Shown here: positions 7,102-20,472 of the stretch, in pieces
Layout of the letters: every line of letters begins with the position of its first letter
How positions within the stretch are numbered: the stretch's first letter is position 1
Assembly (NCBI RefSeq): GCF_000219725.1
Contig: NC_015732.1
Location: 620,001-684,000, forward strand
Source: Gracilinema caldarium DSM 7334
Lineage (GTDB): Bacteria; Spirochaetota; Spirochaetia; Treponematales; Breznakiellaceae
Length of the DNA: 64,000 nucleotides
Reading direction: 5' to 3'
Notes under the pieces: generated by a model
Databases searched by the model: none
The model's input: only the letters and a program-made list of their open reading frames with translations
Told to the model about the DNA's origin: nothing
Translations under genes and position numbers: made by a program

Positions 7102-8766
7102 ATGACAGAGTATTCCCTGATTTTTATATCCATACATTGTGAACAGAGTCCCGATGCGGTAGCCCTCGGGGCCGCCTCGGTGGCGTCCTTTGTTCAGGCT
7201 CGGTTCACCAGGATTCGCATCCTTGATGCCTATGTTGACGAAAGCCCATCACAGATTTTTGAGCGGCTTTTCCGGCTTTGTTCGGGCGCTTCGGGCCCCC
7301 CAGAAACGCTTGGTCCCCAGGAGGCTCACAGACAGGTTGTGGGTTTTTCCCTCTATAGCTGGAATCGGAAACTGAGCCTGACCGTAGCTGCGCTTTGCCG
7401 GGAAGCCTTCCCTGATTGTTTTCTCGTTGCGGGGGGGCCCGAAGTAAGCGCCCGGCCCGAAGGGCTGAGTACCACCGAAGGCGGCCCCTTTTCTGTGTTA
7501 ATCCGAGGAGAAGGTGAATCGGCTTTCCAAAAGGTTCTAGAAGCCTGGTCTGCTGGTATAGCCCCATGCCAGACAATCATAGATGGGAAAACCGAAGATA
7601 TAACTCAACTTCCTTCTCCCTGGCTTTCAGGACTCCTTAAAGGCAAAACAACTGCATTGTGGGAACTTGCACGGGGCTGTCCCTATGCATGTAGCTACTG
7701 TTATGAATCCAAAGGAAACCATCGTCTCCGCTATATATCAGAAGAACGTTTTCATCAGGAGCTGGATTATTTTGTACAAAAACAGATGCACTCTGTTTTT
7801 GTCCTGGATCCGACCTTTAATGCAAACAATAAACGAACACTCCAGATTTTAGACCGTCTTATCGAAAAGGCCCCCAATATTCATTGGCATTTCGAGGTTC
7901 GCGCAGAGCTTCTAAACCGGGATCAGGCTCGGCGTTTTGCCCAGTTGGGAGCTTCCCTGCAGATTGGCCTTCAGACCGCAGATCCGGAGGTTTCTGCCCG
8001 GCTTAACCGTCCGCTGGAACTAGCAAAATTTAAACAGAAAATCGATATACTAAACCAGGAAGGGGTTGTTTTTGGTCTTGATCTCATCTATGGTCTCCCT
8101 GGAGATACCCTTGAGGGCTTTTTGGAAAGCCTTAATGTTGCCATCAACCTTTATCCAAATCATCTGGATATCTTCAGGCTTGCGATCCTTCCCGGTACGG
8201 TTCTCGCTGAAGAAGCTTCACACTATGATATGAACTATGAAACCGAGCCTCCCTATACCCTCCGTTCCAGTGCCAGTTTTTCTCGCCAAGATATGGACAG
8301 GGCAGAACGTTTGGCCAGGGCGGTGGATTTCTTCTATAACAAGGGCCGAGCTGTACCCTGGTTTAACCAGGTACTCTATCCGCTCCATAAAACGCCTGCC
8401 CAGCTGTTTCTGCTCTTTGCAAATTTTATGGATGCAAAAAAGAAACCCTGGGATGCAAACGTAGATCCTTCATATCCCGCCTCTCGGGAAGCTATTATAC
8501 TCGAATTCCTCCATGGTTTATTTGAAAAGCAAAAGTTAGACTACCTGCTCCCGGCGGTTTGGGATGTAGTCCGTTTCCATGGCGCCTGGGCTCGGGCTTT
8601 GGCAGAGGGCATTACCACCACGATAGACTGCAACTACGATCCGGATCAGCTTTTTGGGGCCGGTGTTCTGGACTTGGAAGAGTTCTGTGCTTTGGCAGAT
8701 ATGAATCCTACGAGAATCCGAGTAAAACCGGGTAGAAATGAACCAGAGGTAAGTATCATATCATGA
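7102..8766 (+). CDS. B12-binding-domain radical SAM protein (DUF4080-like)
   Basis: A 554-residue cytosolic iron-sulfur enzyme. Residues 1-160 form a Rossmann-type cobalamin-binding-like domain with VAGGPEVSARP. A radical SAM barrel follows; its cluster motif is CPYACSYC (CxxxCxxC), and it contains LQIGLQTADPEV and LIYGLPGDTLEGF. A C-terminal domain of ~150 residues resembles DUF4080. The substrate is unknown. The canonical cobalamin DxHxxG motif is not evident, so cobalamin use is uncertain. The ribosome site before the ATG is weak. A 6-bp hairpin (7054-7077) sits in the leader. Its stop overlaps the ClC gene start by four bases, indicating coupled translation. Confidence 0.85.
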   Translation: MTEYSLIFISIHCEQSPDAVALGAASVASFVQARFTRIRILDAYVDESPSQIFERLFRLCSGASGPPETLGPQEAHRQVVGFSLYSWNRKLSLTVAALCREAFPDCFLVAGGPEVSARPEGLSTTEGGPFSVLIRGEGESAFQKVLEAWSAGIAPCQTIIDGKTEDITQLPSPWLSGLLKGKTTALWELARGCPYACSYCYESKGNHRLRYISEERFHQELDYFVQKQMHSVFVLDPTFNANNKRTLQILDRLIEKAPNIHWHFEVRAELLNRDQARRFAQLGASLQIGLQTADPEVSARLNRPLELAKFKQKIDILNQEGVVFGLDLIYGLPGDTLEGFLESLNVAINLYPNHLDIFRLAILPGTVLAEEASHYDMNYETEPPYTLRSSASFSRQDMDRAERLARAVDFFYNKGRAVPWFNQVLYPLHKTPAQLFLLFANFMDAKKKPWDANVDPSYPASREAIILEFLHGLFEKQKLDYLLPAVWDVVRFHGAWARALAEGITTTIDCNYDPDQLFGAGVLDLEEFCALADMNPTRIRVKPGRNEPEVSIIS

Positions 8767-10133
8767 ATAGCGTCACGAATATTCAAAATCCTTTAAAAGA
8801 TGAACGTAATTTGCTGCGGCGTTTGTATGTTTCGCGGATTGGGCTTGTGCTGGAAAGTATTCTTGTTGGACTTGCATCCGGCTTGGTGGTTGCCCTGTTT
8901 CGACTGGCCCTAGTAAAGGCTGATGGGATACGGTTTACCTGGTATACCTTTCTGAGAAACCAGATACATCAGGGCCGCTGGCAACCCCTGGTTCTCCAAA
9001 TCGGTCTTTATAGCTTGTTGGGGCTCATACTTGGCTGGATGAGTATCTGGAGGCCTATGGCTCGGGGAAGTGGTATTCCTCAGTTAAAGGGGTATTTCGA
9101 AGGTCGTTTTCAGTTCCGCTGGTTTTCTGAGCTTCTTGTTAAAATAGTGAGCGGTATTCTGGGGATTGGTGCTGGCCTTTCTCTGGGGCGAGAGGGTCCC
9201 TCAGTGCAAATTGGTTCCTATGTTGGTATGGGGCTTCTATCGCGGTCATCGCGGCCCGAAGTTGAAAAAAAGTTCCTGATTACCGCCGGAGCCTCTGCAG
9301 GGCTTGCTGCTGCTTTTAACGCACCCCTTGCTGGGGTGCTCTTCGCTCTAGAGGAATTACACCGGGTATTTTCGCCACTACTGCTTACCTGTACCCTTGC
9401 AGCTTCTATGACTGCCGATATAATGGCAGGCCTCTTTTTTGGTATGCACCCGGTTTTTTCGTTTCGTGCCCTCAATCTGCTTCCAATTAAACTGTATCCC
9501 TGGCTTATGCTTCTGGGTATAGTGAGTGCTTTTGGTGCGGATCTCTTTAAACGAGCTCTCTATAGGGTTCAAGACCTATATAAGGCTTCAAAGTTACCCC
9601 GTATAATCTGGCCAATCTTACCGCTTATAGCTTCTATCCCCTTAGGTTTATATTATTTTGATGTTACCGGGGGTGGCCACCCGCTTATTGAATCGTTAAC
9701 TGAATCTCCGCGGGCTATTGTAATACTTGGTACACTCTTTATCATTAAATTGATGTTTACCGCCCTTTCTTATGGTGTCGGTACAGCGGGAGGCATCTTT
9801 CTACCCCTTCTGGTTTGTGGCGCCCTGTTGGGGACCTTGGTGGGTCAGGTGCTTTCAGCTTTTGGTTTTATTGATCAGAGCTATGTTCTTAACTTTTTAA
9901 TTCTCGGTATGGCAGCCTTTTTTACAGCTGTAGTAAAAGCGCCAGTTACAGGGGCTGTGTTAATTCTGGAAATGTGCGGTAATTTTAACCATTTTGGTGG
10001 ACTTATGCTGGTTTGTCTTGTAGCGTATGTAAGTTCTGATATGCTGGTTTCTGAACCTGTTTATGAGGTGCTGCTCAGACGAATAGCTGCAACGACAGAG
10101 CCTGTACCAGAAAAAACTGGTCAGAATTTGTAG
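8763..10133 (+). CDS. ClC-family chloride channel/transporter
   Basis: A 456-residue integral inner-membrane protein with about ten or more hydrophobic helices. The three anion-pore signatures are present: GSGIPQLKG (about residues 103-111), GREGPSVQIG with the gating glutamate (about 143-152), and GIFLPLL (about 340). The GSGIP serine favours chloride over fluoride, whose transporters differ at that site. There are no CBS domains, so it is the short bacterial form. It overlaps the radical SAM stop (ATGA). Acid resistance or charge balance is the usual family role, and nothing here narrows it further. Confidence 0.93.
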   Translation: MNSVTNIQNPLKDERNLLRRLYVSRIGLVLESILVGLASGLVVALFRLALVKADGIRFTWYTFLRNQIHQGRWQPLVLQIGLYSLLGLILGWMSIWRPMARGSGIPQLKGYFEGRFQFRWFSELLVKIVSGILGIGAGLSLGREGPSVQIGSYVGMGLLSRSSRPEVEKKFLITAGASAGLAAAFNAPLAGVLFALEELHRVFSPLLLTCTLAASMTADIMAGLFFGMHPVFSFRALNLLPIKLYPWLMLLGIVSAFGADLFKRALYRVQDLYKASKLPRIIWPILPLIASIPLGLYYFDVTGGGHPLIESLTESPRAIVILGTLFIIKLMFTALSYGVGTAGGIFLPLLVCGALLGTLVGQVLSAFGFIDQSYVLNFLILGMAAFFTAVVKAPVTGAVLILEMCGNFNHFGGLMLVCLVAYVSSDMLVSEPVYEVLLRRIAATTEPVPEKTGQNL

Positions 10134-10211
10134 TAAGGGTTTATACTACTCTATGGATATGCCCTGGTGCAGGATCCTTACAATCATATCACGCTGAAAA
10201 GGGAGGTTGCT

Positions 10212-11525
10212 ATGGCTCAAGCTGGTGAGCAGAAAAAGGGTGCCCTGGATTGGTATTTTAAGACCAATCTGCTGGTCCGCATTCTGATTGGGTTAATACT
10301 TGGAGCAATTGTCGGTATCATCCTGGGATTTTTCCCCGCTTCGGTAAAGCCCTTTGTGGACAATTCTAAATTCTTCGGAGATCTTTTTATCCGGCTTCTT
10401 AAGATGATTGTGGTGCCGGTGATCTTTTTCTCCCTTGTCTCTGGTGCGGCCAGTATTGCCCCGGGACGTCTCGGTCGGGTGGGTGTAAAAATAGTTCTGT
10501 ATTATCTCATAACCTCATTTTTCGCAGTTATTATTGGCCTGCTTTTTGCGAATCTTCTTCAGCCCGGCGCTGGTTTTGGGATTGTCGGAGATGCAGCAGT
10601 CAAAGGAAAGTCTGCTGAGGCTCCAACGCTCGTACAAATTCTTTTAAATATTATTCCCACCAATCCGGTTGAATCCCTTGCTAAAGGTGATGTGCTCCCG
10701 ATTATCTTTTTTGCTGTTGTGTTTGGTATAGCCCTTTCGTATGTCAAGGATTCAACGAATGCAAAGGTAGCCCAGGGTGCAGGTCTTTTATTTGATGTTA
10801 GCAATGCCGCTGCGGAAACCATGTATAAGGTGGTGGGCGGTATTATGCAGTATGCTCCTATCGGTGTCTTTGTGCTTATCGCCTCGGTCTTTGCCCAACA
10901 GGGACCGAAAGCCTTAGGCCCCCTTTTTATGGTAACCTTGACTGCCTATTTGGGGCTTATAATCCATTTCATCATAACCTATGGTGGTTTTCTTTCAGTT
11001 TATAAACTTGGTTTCTTTAAATTTATAAAAGGCGCCAATGAGGCTATGATTACCGCCTTTGTTACCCGTTCATCCAGTGGTACGCTTCCGGTAACCCTTC
11101 GGGTTTCCGAAGAAAATCTCGGTGTTCCTCGAAGCATCAGTTCTTTCACCTTACCCCTTGGTGCAACGATTAATATGGATGGAACCGCAATCTACCTTGG
11201 GGTATGTGCCATGTTTATTGGGTATGCGACGGGTAATCCGCTTACCTTTGCACAGCAGGCAACGGTCGTTATTACTGCAACCCTGGCTTCCATTGGTACC
11301 GCCGGTGTTCCCGGTGCAGGGGCCATTATGCTCCTGATGGTGCTTGAATCTATTGGCCTCAAGGTTTCCGAAGGAAGCGCAGTAGCTGCAGCCTATGCGA
11401 TGATCCTGGGTATCGATGCCCTCCTTGATATGGGCCGAACCTGGCTTAATGTCACCGGTGATATGGTGGGATCTGTAGTAGTCTCAAAATCAGAGAAGGA
11501 ATTGGATGAGTCTCTGTGGAAGTAA
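10212..11525 (+). CDS. Dicarboxylate/amino acid:cation symporter (DAACS, GltP/DctA family)
   Basis: A 437-residue inner-membrane secondary transporter for glutamate, aspartate or C4-dicarboxylates with Na+ or H+. Signatures are the serine-rich hairpin [12 protein letters not shown] (about residues 285-296), NMDGTAIY (TM7) and the HP2 region [12 protein letters not shown]. The ATG at 10212 is chosen because GGGAGG lies just before it; a longer frame from 10167 lacks such a site. It follows the ClC gene by 78 bases on the same strand. A strong hairpin after the stop suggests it ends the transcript. Substrate preference cannot be read from the motifs. Confidence 0.93.
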
Positions 11526-11781: not shown

Positions 11782-11851
11782 ATGGTAATAAAACTCATAA
11801 ATATAGAATTTTATTGATATAACAGTTACAGTATTATATACAGGATAGGAG

Positions 11852-14800
11852 ATGATGAAACACAATCGGTTGATTCGGTTTGCTAAGGTTGAATTTTTAC
11901 TTACATGTTTAATTGTAGCTCCCTTCCTTTATGCGGGAGGTAAAGGAGAAAGCGCCCGGGATAATGCTGACGGGACCCTTAACTGGTCCAAAACCTTTAA
12001 TATTACCGATAAAAAGCCTGGAATCTATAATCTCTATGCAGAAGGTCAGGATGTGGCAGGGAATAAGACCATAGCCGGACCGATCAACTTGTATGTGGAT
12101 CCTAAGTCTGATCTACCGATAGCCCGTATCGCCAATCCTTTACAGGGAATGCGGGTCTCTGGTGATTTGAATATTGTAGGTACCTGTACTGATGACGATG
12201 CGGTAGAGCGGGTAGAACTTCAGATTGATGGAGGCGACTGGATTGTGGCCAAAGGAAAGGCCTTTTGGTCCTATTATATAAAAACTGGTGATATTCCCGA
12301 TGGCCGCCGCAAAATCAGTGTTCGTGGGATAGATATCAACGGGCTTGTAGGCCCCGTCCAGACCATTCAGTTTGATATGGACCGCGCCCGTCCCGGAGCG
12401 ACAATACTTCAACCTCAGGCAGGCTCACTCGTTTCAGGTACCATCACTATGAAAGGGACTGTTCAGGATGCTAATGGTGTGGCAAAGGTAGAATATTCCC
12501 TGGATAATGGAGAAAATTGGATTCCGATAAAAGGTTCCTATGATGTGAAAAAGGGAATATTTCCCTTTTCTGTTGCTATCGATACTAAAAAATTGAGTCC
12601 CGGTCCGACGGTAGTGCTCATTCGGGGTACCGATAGGGTGGGATCAGTGGGGATCACACCGACCCTTTTTGTTATCGATAATACCCGTCCAGAAATAACG
12701 ATTCTATCACCTCTTCCTGGAGAGAAGATTGATCGTAGCTTCGTTGTCATGGGTCGAGTGAGGGATGATGTAGCTCTGAGTAGTTTTTCCTGGAAGATGG
12801 GATCCCAGGGTGGGGAAATTCCCTTCACACCAGGAGATCCCTATTGGGCGCTTCCTATTACTATAACTGATACAAAACTTTCATCTGTAGAAATTCTCTT
12901 TACTGCCCGAGATCTTATTGGAAATATAACTGAATATAAATTTAAGTTCCCCCTAGATCAAACAAAGGATTTTCCACGGACCACCCTACTTAATCCGATA
13001 AGCTCTGGGTCGGGGAAGGCTGCGATGAGTGCAGGAACCTTATTGGTAGCTGGTTATGCCCGGGATGATGATGGAGTTTCGGCCATAGAATATTGGCTGG
13101 ATAAGGAACCAGAAAAAAAAATTGAAACAAGTGGTGCCTTTTCGGTTCAGATTGATGGAATTGTCCCTGGAAAACACACAATCAGTGTGCGGGCTATAGA
13201 TCGAAATGGACTTGCAGGTCCCATAGCATCAACTCTGTTTGAGGATATAGGGCCTGATCCCCAGCTTTCTCTGGAAGATATCATTTATAACAGTGGTGCC
13301 AAGGATGAACGAAAAGAGGCCTTTGATCCCGGTATGGAAGTCGCCCCTGATGCAAAAGCGAGCCTCCGTCTTACTGCAAAGACCCTGGGAAAACTTGAAA
13401 AACTTGTGTATTCCTTTGCTGATGGTCCTGAACAGTCCATCACTGCTAAGGGTGGAGGAACCCAAACCTTTCTGATTCCTCTTCCTTCTGCAGGGCCCTT
13501 TGGGTTCATCCCCTTTACCGCATCGGTAACCGATAGTGCCGGACGGACCGTATCCCTCACAAGTCATGTATATATCACTAATTATGGTGTTGTGAGAGGA
13601 AGCCCTGCCTTCTATTTTACTGATGAACGACTCTCCAGCGATGGGGTGGTATATTTCAAAAAAAATGCCGGTGAAGCTGAACCGGTCCTGTTCACAGGCC
13701 GCTTCGTCGGTGCTGAAATAGCTCAAGTGAGCCTTGAACCGGATTCGAAGATACTGCAGGTTACTGCAGAGTCAAATAGAATTTTGGTAAAGCCCCTTTC
13801 TGCTGGTGTCACCGGTCCCCACCGGATTGTCGTGAAAAGCACCATGGGGCATATCTATAAATCAGATCAGTTTACCTTTAATAATGACGATACGGGTCCA
13901 CAGATCCAACTGAAAAAGCTCGATACACCCTTTATTACAACTCCGACGTATACACTTTCAGCTGTTCTGACGGACATTTCAGGTATACATTCTGCCTCCT
14001 ATCGTATTCTGAATGCAGAAGGGAAAGAGGTTACCAATGGGACCATCCCATTACATGGAAAAGCAGGAGATACTAAGGCTTCTGTAAATCATGAAATTGC
14101 GATTGGGACCCTTCCGAATGGAGCCTATACTATTGAACTTACAACCCAGGATACAGCGGGGAATAGTAGTTTGGAATCGGTTTTAGTATATAAGGATACC
14201 GCAGGTCCAGAAATCTCACTCGTAAGCCCCTCATCAGAATTGACTATTCCCTTTGCAACAGGTTTTGTTCAGGATCCGGCGGGTATCCAGTCTCTCTCCT
14301 ACGCAGCGGATGGCAAAAGCTTTACTGCTCTTGATGCAAATAAGCCCTTCACTATTCCCTTGATAGATCCGGTTTCAGGACAAATGCTTAGTGGTTCTGG
14401 AGGTGTTCTTAAAGCAGTAGACCGGGCAGGAAATGTAACGACTCTGAATATTCCAGCATTTTATAGCTCTTCTCGTGATGTAGAAACCGCTCTTCCGACC
14501 GAAACTTCCACAGGCGGTACGAAGGCCGCTTCCATTCCAGCGCCAAAAATTGAGCTCTTCGGAGTACTTCCTGGTTTTGGAGCTCCCTTTATTGGTGGTA
14601 CCCCCGGGGCTTCCGGTGCAGTGACTCCCTCAGGAACCACGATGATCGGTCCCCGTCCGATACTCATTTTTAAGATGAGTTCCGCCGCTCCGCCTGTTTC
14701 ATTAGCCTACTCACTCGGAACCATAAAGGGTACCATAGATCCTGGAAGCCTTATCCCCATTGGCTCCGGCAGTGTTGAAGGTCAGACAATTTATGCTGGT

Positions 14801-17800
14801 GTACTCTTTGTGGATTTAGGAAGCCCTAAGTCCGGACAAGTTATCGCAGGTATTACCGTAAAAGATAAAAACGGTAAAACAGGTTCAGCAACATTGAACC
14901 TGCAGGTACAAGTTGATGCAGATAAACCAAACCTTTCTTTTGTGTCTTTGGAAGATAATACCCAACAAAGGGCTCTGGTACGTTTTATGGTTTCCGCTAC
15001 CAGTTCTCTCGGCTTACAGGGCTATCGGTATCAATTGGATAAGGAGGCTCCTCAGTTAATTGAAAATCCTGGATCTGCTTTAATAGAACTCACAACCCTT
15101 TCGGCAGGTTCTCATACGATTACTTTAACTGCAGTGGATCTCTTGGGTAGAGAATCGGCGCCTATAAAACGGAATATTCGAGTAATTGGCCCCGTTCCCC
15201 AATTAGGAGAAATTGCGGTAAGTCAAAAAAATGGACGTACTATTGTAGAGCGTTCTGGTACATTCAGCTACGAATCTGGAGCTTTCTTAGAAGGTACGGT
15301 TAGTGCAGCTAATGGATTGACCGGAGTAGAACTCCATTTTGGAAACCGTACTCCCATTAAGGCTGTTTTAAAAAAAGGAACAGGATCTGACACACTATGG
15401 CAGGCTCCTTTACCTGTGGATCTCCCCTTCACCCGGATACCGATTGAGATTATCCTGACCGATGGAGCAGGCCTTTCGGTTACCAAAACATTCGATCTCT
15501 ATAGGATTATTTCTTTAAAAGATCCTTTGAAGTTTGATAAACCTGGACTCTATACGAATGATATTCGATACAATGCAAATGAGAACTCATTCCGTTTTGT
15601 CTCTGATGAAGTACTCCAGTTTCGGTTTATAGGAGAACCCCTTGAATCAGTCCGTTTTAATACAAACACACCCGAGCTTGTAATAGATTATCAGGACCGG
15701 ATGATTACCGTTCATCCTGTTAAAGATGGGAAAACTCAACCTGTATGGATCATCGCTAAAACCATAGAAGGAGATGAATTCCGATGGGGGCCCTGTACCT
15801 TTATTGTGAGCTTAACCGACCCTGCTGTAACTATTGTTGAACCTCGCCAGGATGGCTGGTATAAAGGTTTAATTCCCTTTGTAGCTACCCTAGATCCATC
15901 CCAGACAGGCTTACAAAAAATTGAAAGGGTTGAATATGTAGTTGATAGCTTTAATAATGAGGATGCCCAGTGGACCCCACTTGCACTAACACCTGACCCA
16001 AAGGATCCTCTTAAACTGCAAGGAGAATTCCTGCTGAATGGGGCTGATGGTGCCCATAATGTTCTATTCAAAGCGGTGAATGGGCTTGGCCGAAGCAAAG
16101 AATTCCATATTATAGTTAATCGGGATACCCAGAATCCTGCAGGTCGCATTATGCTGCCACCAAACCAGGACTCTGTAAATGGTCGTATTACCATAGCTGC
16201 CTCTTTTGATGATCCCTCTGGACAGTTGGCCGCGATTTTATGGAGTGAAGATGGAGGTAAGACCTGGGAACCAAGCAATACTTTGAACTTTACAGTCCGT
16301 CGCTTCGATCTGAGTGCCCAAAGTTCCGCCGCGGATCAGATACGCTTTAAGGCGGTCGATGCCTCAGGTAATGAAACTGAACTCACCGGCTCCTTTAACC
16401 TGGATGTCGCGGCCGATAAACCCCGGGTTCAAATCATGCAGCCTGAAGAATTAGAGGTACTTCGGGAAGACTTTGTGATTGCTGGAGCTGCCTTCGACGA
16501 TGATGGATTAAAATCGATCCATTATCGTTTTGATGATGGGCCTATCCAGGAACTGGCCCTGGAAGGCAACAGCTTTAATGTACCCATCCGGCTTGTGGAT
16601 ACTACCGACAATGAACACCATATCACTGTTTTTGCAGAGGATATTTATGGTGTTCATGGTGACCCGGTAGTCCGTACCTACAGAATCTCAAAAGAAGAAC
16701 CCAAGGCTGAAATCAGAACTCCTACCCTCGATACTACGGTCCGTGGTGTAATCGATATATCCGGCGTAGCATCCGATGCGAATGGTATTAAAGAGGTATA
16801 CCTTTCCTTTGACAACGCGGTTACCTTTAATAAATGTGTGGGTACTGAAAACTGGACCTATCGGCTTGATACACGAAATCTGAAGAGTGGACTCCACTCA
16901 ATTTATGTAAAACCAATAGATGGGTATGAAACTACAGGCTTCTATGCAGGCCTCATTTCTATCGATAATACAGCACCCCAGGTCATGTTGGATGTTCCCT
17001 TCGATATGTCTGTGAGCCGGGGAAATCTTGTTTTAAGCGGTCGGATTTCCGATGATACCCAGCTTGCAAGCTGTGATGCGGTTGTTTTCAGCAAACTTCA
17101 ACCTGACAAGGGGACAAGAACGTTCTCGTTACCATTGGAACCGGTGATTCAGCAGACCCTGGATTTGACAGGTCTTCCGAAGGGGGAATACGGTATTCGG
17201 ATTGTTGTCCGGGATAAGGCTGGCAACGAAACGGTTTCCAGTCGGGACTTTGTGTTGGATCCTGATTTTACCGACGAGATGATTGCTATTGCTACTCCTG
17301 TACGGGGTGAATACTTGACTGGTATGTTCCGTATTCAGGGCTTCCTGCGTTCGAGCCGCTTACCCAGTGCAGTAAGTCTCCTCATTGATAATGAGGATGT
17401 TGCTTCTATTACTCCAAAATCAAATGGCTGGTTTTCCCTGGATATCAGCGATGAAAAGCTGAAAACAGGTACCCATACCCTTATTGTTCGTTATACCAAC
17501 AATGAAAATAAGGTTGTTAGCAGTGAGCCTGTAACGATTGATTATAAACCCTCTGGCCCCTGGATTATGGTTAATGCCTTTACTTCAGGTGATTACATCC
17601 CTGGCCGGCCCTGGCTCAAGGGGAACGCCGGCTGGTATCTTGCGTCGGCGGATGCGGAAGCAGAGGCTGATGCCGATGCAGCCCTGGCGGCATCAGCCCC
17701 AAAAAATAAAAAAGTCGATCCTAAATCTCTTGCTCGAGCCCGTCAGCAGGGACGGCAGGTGGCTCTCATAGAGGTAAGTCTCGATAACGGCAGGACATTC

Positions 17801-18571
17801 TTCCCTGCAGCAGGAACAAAAGATTGGAAATTCCGCCTGGAAACCCAGGATTATCCCGAAGGATTATTGCCGCTTCTTGTCCGGGCTACCTTTAAGAATG
17901 GTGATAGGACTCTCTCTAAGGTGATATTAAACCTGGATAAGACACCGCCCAGCATATCCATGTTAAAACCAGAAGAAGGTGGTCGGTTTAACCAGAATCT
18001 TAAAGTGTATGGAATTGCAAAGGATGATGTGAACCTTGCTTCGGTCAGGGTCGTCCTGCGACAGGGTGATAAGGCGGGTTATCAGGTACCAGCCTTTATA
18101 CAAGGTTTATATGTAGATTCTGGGGGTTTAGGAGAAACACTTTATAATGCAGGACTTGGTCTCACCTTCTTCGATGATAATGTAAAATTACAGGCTTCTT
18201 ATGGTTTTACTCCACAACATTATAATAATGAGGAACAACGTTTTTATGGGACGGTATTCAGCGGAAAACTTTTAGCCAATGTTGCAGCCTTACCTTTTGG
18301 TTATTTTTTTGGTCCTGACTGGAATTTCCTTTCTGCCAATCTTGCGGTAGGTGCAAAATTTAGCTACTTCACCGAGACTGCCAGTGGCCAGCCCCTTATT
18401 TTAAGTGCTGTAGTTGGCCAGGTAGAATTCCCCCGGTTCAAATTCGAGCGGCTTCAGTATTTCAGTACCCTTTCACTATATTCTGAATTACAGGCATGGT
18501 TCATATCAGCAGAGGTTTCTGGGGGAATTGCCTATCGGCTATCCTTTGGTGTACGAAGCAGCATTTTCTAG
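11852..18571 (+). CDS. Giant secreted Ig-like repeat protein with C-terminal outer-membrane barrel-like domain
   Basis: A 2239-residue exported protein. Residues 1-28 form a signal peptide (basic start, hydrophobic core ending PFLYA) with no lipobox cysteine. At least 16 repeats follow at a spacing of roughly 80-130 residues. Each opens with a D..P.I.I..P pattern and continues with a G...I.G...D..G.. segment and a VEYSLD/ISVRAID-like strand, typical of bacterial Ig/cadherin-like beta sandwiches. An Ala/Asp/Glu- then Lys/Arg-rich insert lies near residue 1940. The last ~180 residues alternate polar and aromatic strands and end in LSFGVRSSIF. A C-terminal Phe is the usual signal for BAM insertion, so the protein may be anchored in the outer membrane with a long stalk. 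AGGAG abuts the first ATG, so the second ATG (11855) may be used. Adhesion or envelope structure is a reasonable guess, but no function is known. Confidence 0.82.
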   Translation: MMKHNRLIRFAKVEFLLTCLIVAPFLYAGGKGESARDNADGTLNWSKTFNITDKKPGIYNLYAEGQDVAGNKTIAGPINLYVDPKSDLPIARIANPLQGMRVSGDLNIVGTCTDDDAVERVELQIDGGDWIVAKGKAFWSYYIKTGDIPDGRRKISVRGIDINGLVGPVQTIQFDMDRARPGATILQPQAGSLVSGTITMKGTVQDANGVAKVEYSLDNGENWIPIKGSYDVKKGIFPFSVAIDTKKLSPGPTVVLIRGTDRVGSVGITPTLFVIDNTRPEITILSPLPGEKIDRSFVVMGRVRDDVALSSFSWKMGSQGGEIPFTPGDPYWALPITITDTKLSSVEILFTARDLIGNITEYKFKFPLDQTKDFPRTTLLNPISSGSGKAAMSAGTLLVAGYARDDDGVSAIEYWLDKEPEKKIETSGAFSVQIDGIVPGKHTISVRAIDRNGLAGPIASTLFEDIGPDPQLSLEDIIYNSGAKDERKEAFDPGMEVAPDAKASLRLTAKTLGKLEKLVYSFADGPEQSITAKGGGTQTFLIPLPSAGPFGFIPFTASVTDSAGRTVSLTSHVYITNYGVVRGSPAFYFTDERLSSDGVVYFKKNAGEAEPVLFTGRFVGAEIAQVSLEPDSKILQVTAESNRILVKPLSAGVTGPHRIVVKSTMGHIYKSDQFTFNNDDTGPQIQLKKLDTPFITTPTYTLSAVLTDISGIHSASYRILNAEGKEVTNGTIPLHGKAGDTKASVNHEIAIGTLPNGAYTIELTTQDTAGNSSLESVLVYKDTAGPEISLVSPSSELTIPFATGFVQDPAGIQSLSYAADGKSFTALDANKPFTIPLIDPVSGQMLSGSGGVLKAVDRAGNVTTLNIPAFYSSSRDVETALPTETSTGGTKAASIPAPKIELFGVLPGFGAPFIGGTPGASGAVTPSGTTMIGPRPILIFKMSSAAPPVSLAYSLGTIKGTIDPGSLIPIGSGSVEGQTIYAGVLFVDLGSPKSGQVIAGITVKDKNGKTGSATLNLQVQVDADKPNLSFVSLEDNTQQRALVRFMVSATSSLGLQGYRYQLDKEAPQLIENPGSALIELTTLSAGSHTITLTAVDLLGRESAPIKRNIRVIGPVPQLGEIAVSQKNGRTIVERSGTFSYESGAFLEGTVSAANGLTGVELHFGNRTPIKAVLKKGTGSDTLWQAPLPVDLPFTRIPIEIILTDGAGLSVTKTFDLYRIISLKDPLKFDKPGLYTNDIRYNANENSFRFVSDEVLQFRFIGEPLESVRFNTNTPELVIDYQDRMITVHPVKDGKTQPVWIIAKTIEGDEFRWGPCTFIVSLTDPAVTIVEPRQDGWYKGLIPFVATLDPSQTGLQKIERVEYVVDSFNNEDAQWTPLALTPDPKDPLKLQGEFLLNGADGAHNVLFKAVNGLGRSKEFHIIVNRDTQNPAGRIMLPPNQDSVNGRITIAASFDDPSGQLAAILWSEDGGKTWEPSNTLNFTVRRFDLSAQSSAADQIRFKAVDASGNETELTGSFNLDVAADKPRVQIMQPEELEVLREDFVIAGAAFDDDGLKSIHYRFDDGPIQELALEGNSFNVPIRLVDTTDNEHHITVFAEDIYGVHGDPVVRTYRISKEEPKAEIRTPTLDTTVRGVIDISGVASDANGIKEVYLSFDNAVTFNKCVGTENWTYRLDTRNLKSGLHSIYVKPIDGYETTGFYAGLISIDNTAPQVMLDVPFDMSVSRGNLVLSGRISDDTQLASCDAVVFSKLQPDKGTRTFSLPLEPVIQQTLDLTGLPKGEYGIRIVVRDKAGNETVSSRDFVLDPDFTDEMIAIATPVRGEYLTGMFRIQGFLRSSRLPSAVSLLIDNEDVASITPKSNGWFSLDISDEKLKTGTHTLIVRYTNNENKVVSSEPVTIDYKPSGPWIMVNAFTSGDYIPGRPWLKGNAGWYLASADAEAEADADAALAASAPKNKKVDPKSLARARQQGRQVALIEVSLDNGRTFFPAAGTKDWKFRLETQDYPEGLLPLLVRATFKNGDRTLSKVILNLDKTPPSISMLKPEEGGRFNQNLKVYGIAKDDVNLASVRVVLRQGDKAGYQVPAFIQGLYVDSGGLGETLYNAGLGLTFFDDNVKLQASYGFTPQHYNNEEQRFYGTVFSGKLLANVAALPFGYFFGPDWNFLSANLAVGAKFSYFTETASGQPLILSAVVGQVEFPRFKFERLQYFSTLSLYSELQAWFISAEVSGGIAYRLSFGVRSSIF

Positions 18572-18618: not shown

Positions 18619-18648
18619 CCCTGTTGGTTTTCTGGCAGGGCATTTTTT
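18619..18648 (+). terminator. Rho-independent terminator after the giant protein gene
   Basis: CCCTG and CAGGG form a short stem, followed by C-A and six T residues (18643-18648). It lies between convergent genes, and its T-run overlaps the stop region of the tetR gene. Confidence 0.6.
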
Positions 18649-19240
18649 ATAAAGCCAATTGTTGGACTGCGAGCACAATTGCGTCCCGCAGTTCGTCTAC
18701 CGAATTCCGTCTGAGAACTACCAGGCGGAAGATAGCGGCTTCTATAAGACCATACAAAAGATCGTCCAGTTCACGAACATTTACCTGTTTCAATTCTCCC
18801 TTACGGATTCCGTCTATGGCAATGGATGCGAGAATATGTCTGAGACGGATGGTACGTTTACGAACCCGGTAATCCGTATCGGTTCCGCTTTTGGAAAGAT
18901 GGAGAAGGTAATTTAATACCACCGAAAGGAGCCGTTTGTTCTCCTGGAGCCGATCGAGAATTGTGGTCAGAACAAGCATGAGTTTGTCAGGGGTTTTCAG
19001 GGTCTGATCTGCCTTAACCCGCTGTAGATCCGCTTCTACCCCCATGAGCATTTGCTTGATGCTCCAGTTAAAGATTTCTCGCTTATTCTTAAAGTATATA
19101 TAGAGGGTTGTACGGGTTATACCACAACGGTCAGCAATTTTCTGAAAGGTTGCATCCTCAAAACCCTCGTCGACAAATACATCCAGGGCTCGCTCAAGAA
19201 TTTCCTTGCGGCGCTTGTCATGTTCTACGATGATCGACAT
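18647..19240 (-). CDS. TetR/AcrR-family transcriptional regulator
   Basis: A 197-residue DNA-binding repressor. The N-terminal helix-turn-helix spans about residues 10-56 with ILERALDVFVDEGFEDATFQKIADRCGITRTTLYIYFKNKREIF, a very clear TetR signature. The C-terminal ligand domain is all-helical and unspecific. The ATG at 19238-19240 is chosen because GGGAG lies eight bases upstream; two codons earlier there is only a TTG. It follows the rRNA methyltransferase gene by 47 bases on the same strand. The ligand and targets are not indicated. Confidence 0.9.
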   Translation of the reverse strand: MSIIVEHDKRRKEILERALDVFVDEGFEDATFQKIADRCGITRTTLYIYFKNKREIFNWSIKQMLMGVEADLQRVKADQTLKTPDKLMLVLTTILDRLQENKRLLSVVLNYLLHLSKSGTDTDYRVRKRTIRLRHILASIAIDGIRKGELKQVNVRELDDLLYGLIEAAIFRLVVLRRNSVDELRDAIVLAVQQLAL

Positions 19241-19287
19241 ATGCAATGCTCCCTATATGGTATGATAAAAATATCAAAATGTTTGAC

Positions 19288-20472
19288 TTATATTCTTTCA
19301 TAGTGATACATATATGATTTCAGTGCTCCATTAGTTATATTCCTAACTGATGAAGCCCGTCGTCCATAAAAGGATTCAAAACCAGGATGATTCGTGATGA
19401 CCACAAGATCCCAGCTTGGGAAATGCTGTTCTAAACTACCCATCGCCTGATAGGTCTGTTCAGCCGCCTCTCGGTCCCCCAACCGTTCTCCATAGGGTGG
19501 GTTGGTAATGAGGTAGCCCGGTTCCCCCTCCGGGGCTCTTGCCTGTTCCATGGAAAGTCTCTGGACGTGAGGCCAATATGCAGAGGGAGGAGTAAAACCG
19601 CTTGCAAGCCGTATGCCCCGTCCTGCTTTTTTACCCTGCACTGTTTCATAAGCCCGGATGAGATTAGACTGGGCAATTGACACGGCCCGGATATCGGCAT
19701 CACTGCCATAGATACGGATACGGTTGGTAACATTGAGCTTGCTCCGTAATTCCTCCCGGAGTCGCCCTTCGATTCGTGTATCACCAATCAGGAAGTCCGA
19801 TACCGCAAAGGTTCTGCCTAATCCGGGAGCCGCATCCCAAGCGTAAAGCGCCGCTTCGATGAGAATCGTGCCGGATCCACAGAAGGGGTCGTAGAGGGGA
19901 TACTTCCGCCGCCATCCGGAGAGGAGGAGCATGGCCGCCGCGGTGGTCTCCCGGAGGGGTGCAGCGCCTCCTTCGGTCCGGTATCCCCGTTTAAACAGGG
20001 GCTCCCCGCAGAGATCCAAAAGAATCTGGACCCGGTCCTTTTCGATATGGACCCTCAGTTCTACCGCTTTACCATAATCGCTGAGGCGCTGCACCCCCCA
20101 GGCCCGGCAGAGCCTGTCCGCGGCGGCCTTGTGGACCATGGCCTGAATACTGGTTTCGGCGGAAAGTTTGGAATGGTTGCTTCTGACCTTGTCTACCACA
20201 ACCCGGTAATCCCGGGGAACAAAATCCTCCCAAGGAATAGACCGGCATCCTTCAAAGAGAGCATCAAAGTCAGTAGCTGTATACGATGCAAGTTCCAGCA
20301 GAATCCTGTCAGCGGTGCGCAGCGACAAGAGGGCTCGATACATCCCTTCTGTATCAGTGGAAAAACGGATTTTCCCATAGCTGGAGTCGCTGATAGATAG
20401 ATTTAGTTTATGCAGTTCATTAGAAAGGGCCCGTTCCGCACCAATGGCACAGAGGGCGACAAAATTCATCAT
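19288..20472 (-). CDS. THUMP-domain 23S rRNA (guanine-N2) methyltransferase, YpsC/RlmL type
   Basis: A 394-residue SAM-dependent RNA methyltransferase. The N-terminal THUMP domain (about residues 45-155) contains VDKVRSNHSKL. The Rossmann domain has motif I as DPFCGSGTILIEAA and the catalytic NPPYGERLGD, which methylates exocyclic amines of guanine. The length matches the YpsC form, which corresponds to the N-terminal half of E. coli RlmL. The reading frame begins with two Met codons, and either could start. It lies close to another predicted rRNA methyltransferase and a TetR gene on the same strand. Confidence 0.9.
   Translation of the reverse strand: MMNFVALCAIGAERALSNELHKLNLSISDSSYGKIRFSTDTEGMYRALLSLRTADRILLELASYTATDFDALFEGCRSIPWEDFVPRDYRVVVDKVRSNHSKLSAETSIQAMVHKAAADRLCRAWGVQRLSDYGKAVELRVHIEKDRVQILLDLCGEPLFKRGYRTEGGAAPLRETTAAAMLLLSGWRRKYPLYDPFCGSGTILIEAALYAWDAAPGLGRTFAVSDFLIGDTRIEGRLREELRSKLNVTNRIRIYGSDADIRAVSIAQSNLIRAYETVQGKKAGRGIRLASGFTPPSAYWPHVQRLSMEQARAPEGEPGYLITNPPYGERLGDREAAEQTYQAMGSLEQHFPSWDLVVITNHPGFESFYGRRASSVRNITNGALKSYMYHYERI

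Follow-up and report, generated by a model that had tools for sequence, protein, structure and literature searches.

Eight-stranded outer-membrane β-barrels have both of their termini in the periplasm, and in BamA, LptD, PgaA, OmpM and SlpA, whose outer-membrane barrels are C-terminal, the domain on the N-terminal side of the barrel is periplasmic. Here we analyzed a gene at positions 11852-18571 (+ strand) of a 64,000-nucleotide stretch (the window) of the Gracilinema caldarium DSM 7334 genome (NC_015732.1, positions 620,001 to 684,000), which encodes a long chain of immunoglobulin-like (Ig) domains followed by a putative outer-membrane barrel and whose product is referred to below as protein A. 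Previous work on the SlpA-like proteins of Deinococcus radiodurans described a coiled coil followed by an eight-stranded C-terminal barrel, with the part of SlpA before the barrel in the periplasm, which is a precedent for a periplasmic spacer joined to a barrel (PMC9388160), and in Veillonella, OmpM attaches the outer membrane to peptidoglycan (PMC10628300). Protein A has the same order of spacer and C-terminal barrel as these proteins, but an Ig array replaces the coiled coil in nearly all members of its family, a giant lipoprotein partner (B) is co-inherited with it, and a Pfam search of A gave no match to SLH domains. OmpA and OprF share with A an eight-stranded barrel (predicted in A), periplasmic barrel ends and a periplasmic extension; however, the extension of A is N-terminal, comprises about 2000 residues of Ig domains, and lacks OmpA_C. 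No Pfam family, including OmpA_membrane and OmpA_C, matched the barrel in full-length A or in 19 barrel homologues at E values up to 1. Because it has neither SLH nor OmpA_C domains, A is not a member of the SlpA/OmpM or OmpA families. Our results suggest that A is probably an outer-membrane-anchored Ig cable that points inward and acts together with B as an envelope scaffold.

Two further groups of proteins resemble A in part. The Leptospira Lig proteins and OmpL47 are also spirochaete proteins with many Ig-like repeats, but Lig proteins are lipoproteins without a C-terminal barrel, and neither A nor its relatives carry a Lig-type lipidated N-terminal Cys. The OmpL47-type domain NF047446 (NCBIfam) was found in A at residues 408-453, inside Ig5, with 60.6 bits against a cut-off of 40, whereas the OmpL47 equivalog model NF047441 gave 30.7 bits over the whole of A against a cut-off of 250. 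Type V and inverse autotransporters, like A, join a long β-rich part to an outer-membrane barrel. In the inverse type (intimin and invasin), the barrel is N-terminal and the Ig stalk follows it, whereas the barrel of A is C-terminal; the classical type Va has 12 strands, a linker helix and a match to the Autotransporter profile, whereas A has 8 strands, a linker of ~10 residues between the half Ig and strand 1, and no Pfam Autotransporter match. The first-pass annotation had called the layout of A a possible inverse order, which fits poorly, as stalk-then-barrel is the usual order and is also that of classical autotransporters, although their 12-stranded barrel and helix are absent from A. That it recognized no characterized spirochaete family with this layout agrees with our results; neither A nor B is described in the literature that was searched, many subscription papers being outside the reach of the search. 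Type IX secretion was also considered and rejected, with A scoring below the cut-offs for PorU and Por_Secre_tail.

The features of the gene and its product are as follows (positions are those of the window).

11842-11850, + strand: ribosome-binding-site-like (Shine-Dalgarno-like) sequence GGATAGGAG, just 5' of the A gene
11852-18571, + strand: gene for protein A, ATG start, 2239 amino acids
11852-11935, + strand: predicted signal peptide, residues 1-28 (cleavage between ...LIVAPFLYA and GGKG), from the sequence and the N-termini of relatives
11957-12679, + strand: conserved N-terminal tip, Ig1-Ig3, residues 36-276, 31-66% identity across sampled relatives
12686-16126, + strand: Ig4-Ig12 and two unmatched β-like stretches, residues 279-1425, a spacer that is variable from about Ig6
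16133-17938, + strand: basal Ig13-Ig18, residues 1428-2029, conserved from Ig14 on
17945-18061, + strand: last Ig, shortened, residues 2032-2070, joined to the barrel via a conserved RxGDK motif
18062-18568, + strand: predicted C-terminal eight-stranded outer-membrane barrel, residues 2071-2239, with a terminal Phe
18619-18640, + strand: terminator-like hairpin and T run, 48 bases past the A stop codon

The number of terminator-like hairpins was not above shuffle expectation, and the one at 18619-18640 is well placed. Comparison of N-termini showed that neither A nor its relatives have a lipobox where the signal peptide is cleaved; the signal peptides of the orthologues end in A-x-A/G-type sites without Cys, i.e., of the signal peptidase I type. 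The open reading frame lies exactly at the position given in the first-pass annotation. An iterated profile built from A's own repeats identified 19 Ig-like segments, which bears out the earlier count of at least 16; 17 of these are more or less complete, the N-terminal one is partial, and the last comprises ~40 residues. Pfam Big_7 matched 8 stretches of A (E 4e-59), other bacterial Ig families matched as well, and two β-like stretches of ~100 residues (576-681 and 1220-1322) were unmatched by the Ig profile.

The C-terminal ~170 residues of A are β-rich, end in Phe, have aromatic and glycine-rich strands and are conserved in relatives. The first-pass annotation had likened this region to an outer-membrane barrel, and structure prediction supports this reading at low confidence. 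AlphaFold2 (AF2) models, which rest on 5 sequences, gave an eight-strand meander both for the 280-residue C-terminus (predicted local distance difference test score, pLDDT, 47.8) and for the barrel alone (pLDDT 54.9; predicted template modelling score, pTM, 0.54). The top structural match of the modelled barrel was OprF (Z 14.4, 2.6 Å over 124 residues), followed by NspA (Z 13.5) and OmpA (Z 12.7), with CarO also among the best; OprF, NspA and OmpA align to the model first strand to first strand. OprF was also the best Foldseek match (E 5.6e-4). A sequence search of the PDB with the barrel returned chance matches only (G-protein-coupled receptors, E 0.2).

Evidence independent of the model came from an alignment of 65 members, in which variable and fixed inter-strand segments alternate strictly. 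The standard deviations of hairpin length were 3.43 (L1), 0.00 (T1), 8.70 (L2), 0.00 (T2), 8.64 (L3), 0.89 (T3) and 2.83 (L4); T2 stands out by its length (~19 residues) and is conserved. By its AF2 strands, fold matches and loop pattern, and with the low model confidence kept in mind, A falls into the OmpA-like eight-stranded barrel fold class, and its C-terminus is supported by model and alignment as a predicted outer-membrane barrel. The alternative that this region forms a soluble β-barrel or lipocalin-like periplasmic domain outside the membrane draws on the low model confidence and on lipocalins lower in the structural match list, but outer-membrane barrels dominate the top rows, and the conserved terminal Phe, the alternation of variable loops with fixed turns and the aromatic and glycine-rich strands all speak against it, so that we regard it as very improbable.

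The same pattern bears on which side of the membrane the Ig chain lies. The variable segments L1-L4 fit extracellular loops, and the fixed segments T1-T3, which share a side with the N- and C-termini, fit periplasmic turns. Since the strand count is even and the hairpin lengths alternate, both barrel ends, and hence the Ig chain, would lie on the periplasmic side; likewise, eight strands with the terminal Phe at the periplasmic face imply that the chain passes into the barrel at its periplasmic side. The topology of A is thus well supported, and by these fold rules its ~2000-residue Ig part should be periplasmic. The surface display proposed by the first-pass annotation is therefore unlikely, given the eight strands and the hairpin pattern in 65 sequences. 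Of the two findings that it had set against its own proposal, periplasmic localization is favored by the evidence, though not proven, and a soluble C-terminal domain is disfavored. An autotransporter-like anchor showing A's own Ig stalk on the surface would agree with the stalk-then-barrel order of classical autotransporters, with the frequency of Ig arrays among surface adhesins and with a cable longer than a simple periplasmic span. However, the barrel has eight strands, without linker helix or autotransporter profile, the N-terminal side sits with the short invariant turns, and the tip is 31-66% conserved between distant species, unlike an adhesin tip; we consider this arrangement improbable.

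Pairwise alignment of A with 14 relatives showed that the Ig1-3 tip and the base (Ig14-18, the shortened Ig and the barrel, the latter with 34-74% identity) are conserved, and that the region from about Ig6 to Ig12 is divergent, with a domain number that varies between species. When the A repeat profile was applied to 39 further full-length relatives, 12-20 Ig domains were counted, and therefore the total length of A is not fixed. The RxGDK motif between the last Ig and the barrel is conserved in most members, and in nearly all relatives the last Ig is likewise cut to ~40 residues ahead of the barrel. Conserved ends with a variable middle would be expected if a cable makes fixed contacts at both ends, and differ from what a surface adhesin under diversification would show.

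A 219-residue C-terminal query of A matched 24 of 59 related genomes with 44-92% identity, at the C-terminal end of the proteins, and a barrel profile found A in 66 of the 296 genomes sampled from the spirochaete phylum; a broader barrel profile added one marginal match only. Conservation of the A C-terminus is thus far beyond chance. The barrel is always C-terminal and almost always follows an Ig-rich part of ~1000-2000 residues. A is normally single-copy, with two copies each in G018 and G298. The profile search left both the Borrelia-like small genomes of the class (f7) and the 1.1-Mb Treponema pallidum-like genome G045 without a barrel match (both labels inferred from size and kinship), and a search for the Ig1-3 region was negative in G045 and in 10 further A-negative members of the order. 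One distant member differs in its stalk: in L111 (G080:C139), the barrel stands on a 262-residue protein that has a signal peptide and, where other members have the Ig array, a charged stretch that by inspection is a coiled coil; a gene for a B-type lipoprotein follows directly. This swap shows that the barrel is a module and supports a spacer role for the part before it, and the link to B is kept.

In many relatives, a second giant open reading frame adjoins A and encodes B, an Ig-rich lipoprotein whose C-terminal region is unlike that of A. The same 296 genomes were searched with a profile of this region, which has no domain in common with the A profile. Every one of the 56 A-positive genomes of the class had B (47/47 of the order, including this genome, and 9/9 others), and none of the order's 11 A-negative genomes did; these 11 span 8 genera, some of them with A-positive species too. 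The hypergeometric chance of this co-occurrence in the order is 4e-12, a naive figure that ignores relatedness. At the phylum level, 8 of 10 A-positive genomes had a B match. In 22 genomes of other classes that lack A, the profile also matched weakly (E 3e-18 or weaker, mostly short frames); these matches covered part of the model and were taken as generic propeller-like matches. Among the 59 genomes with usable coordinates, 39 have A and B within 15 kb of each other, and in 32 the two lie within 1.5 kb (22 with A before B, 6 with B before A, 4 on opposite strands). Altogether, a functional link between A and B is well supported by these genomic patterns, and A represents an old, uncharacterized spirochaete family that is co-inherited with giant lipoproteins.

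B frames are mostly 1300-6200 residues long, with 20-26% identity in the C-terminal region. Their N-termini have a lipobox, and its Cys is followed by a GLGxxVD segment that recurs among them; the pattern C-x(2-12)-[GSA][LF]G-x(2-3)-[VI]D occurs right after this Cys in B of L031, L041, L081, L084, L088, L089 and others. This segment is possibly a sorting or docking signal. B is amplified in some genomes, e.g. G257 with five B genes (frames of 2038-6178 residues), while A is usually single. In the main rival reading, A might be an outer-membrane partner that gets or keeps B on the surface, its tip and cable capturing B in transit, so that the surface giant would be B and not A. One A against up to five B genes in a genome, the length and divergence of B next to its constant GLGxxVD segment, the good conservation of A and the strict co-inheritance all suit such a role, but an eight-stranded barrel is too narrow as a protein channel and A does not resemble any known translocon, and we consider this delivery role unlikely.

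We favor instead the inward cable, which would operate as follows. A would be exported by Sec, and its C-terminal eight-stranded barrel would be inserted in the outer membrane. The ~19 Ig domains would remain on the periplasmic side and form a long cable, conserved at tip and base and variable in length in between; the shortened last Ig would touch the barrel, and the Ig1-3 tip is a candidate contact. Together with B, presumably through physical contact, A may then form a scaffold between the outer membrane and the layers further inside, connecting the two. Several observations weigh against this model. Confidence in the AF2 models of the barrel is low (pLDDT 48 and 55, 5 sequences). At ~4 nm per Ig, we estimate a cable of ~70-80 nm, which exceeds a simple radial periplasmic span, so that it would have to run obliquely or folded. 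Pfam revealed no known peptidoglycan-binding domain in A. B resembles surface proteins in that it evolves fast and occurs in several copies, and four ordinary OmpA_C domains are encoded elsewhere in the genome, so that A is not the sole possible tether. More tentatively, A and B may constitute an undescribed spirochaete trans-envelope system, in which the A cable would engage B via the GLGxxVD segment or the B Ig arrays and either bridge the inner and outer membranes or hand B to the surface.

The genome of G. caldarium (Spirochaetia, Treponematales, Breznakiellaceae) is a single contig of 3,239,340 bases, and a draft genome of the species contains the same A C-terminus (92% over 79 residues). 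A and B are far apart here, B being a 3379-residue frame (...LFIASC DLFTAGLGAKVD...) at about 2.23 Mb (L081:3460-13599, about 2,229,460-2,239,600, - strand). Directly after B lies a gene for a transmembrane (TM)-anchored protein of 415 residues (L081:2137-3384). In a few other genomes, proteins of family A6 and, in L032, a solute-binding-protein-like one adjoin A or B; A6, a TM-anchored family of ~330 residues, was rejected as a general third component, as it occurs in only 9 of 296 genomes, and the protein beside B here is not clearly homologous to it (hhalign probability 3.8). The neighbors of A (window positions 7102-11525 and 18647-20472) encode a B12-binding radical-SAM protein, a CLC channel and a dicarboxylate symporter, and a TetR regulator and an RlmL-like methylase also flank A on the opposite strand. 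The downstream neighbors are common to the near relative L026.

To our knowledge, outer-membrane attachment in spirochaetes, whose flagella turn between the outer membrane and the cell cylinder, is not well explained. With its long-conserved barrel, its probably inward Ig cable of ~1000-2000 residues and a partner B that is always co-inherited within the class, A is a concrete candidate for a component of this envelope architecture. Our results also correct the annotation of A-type genes, whose products look like surface adhesins and are more likely periplasmic.

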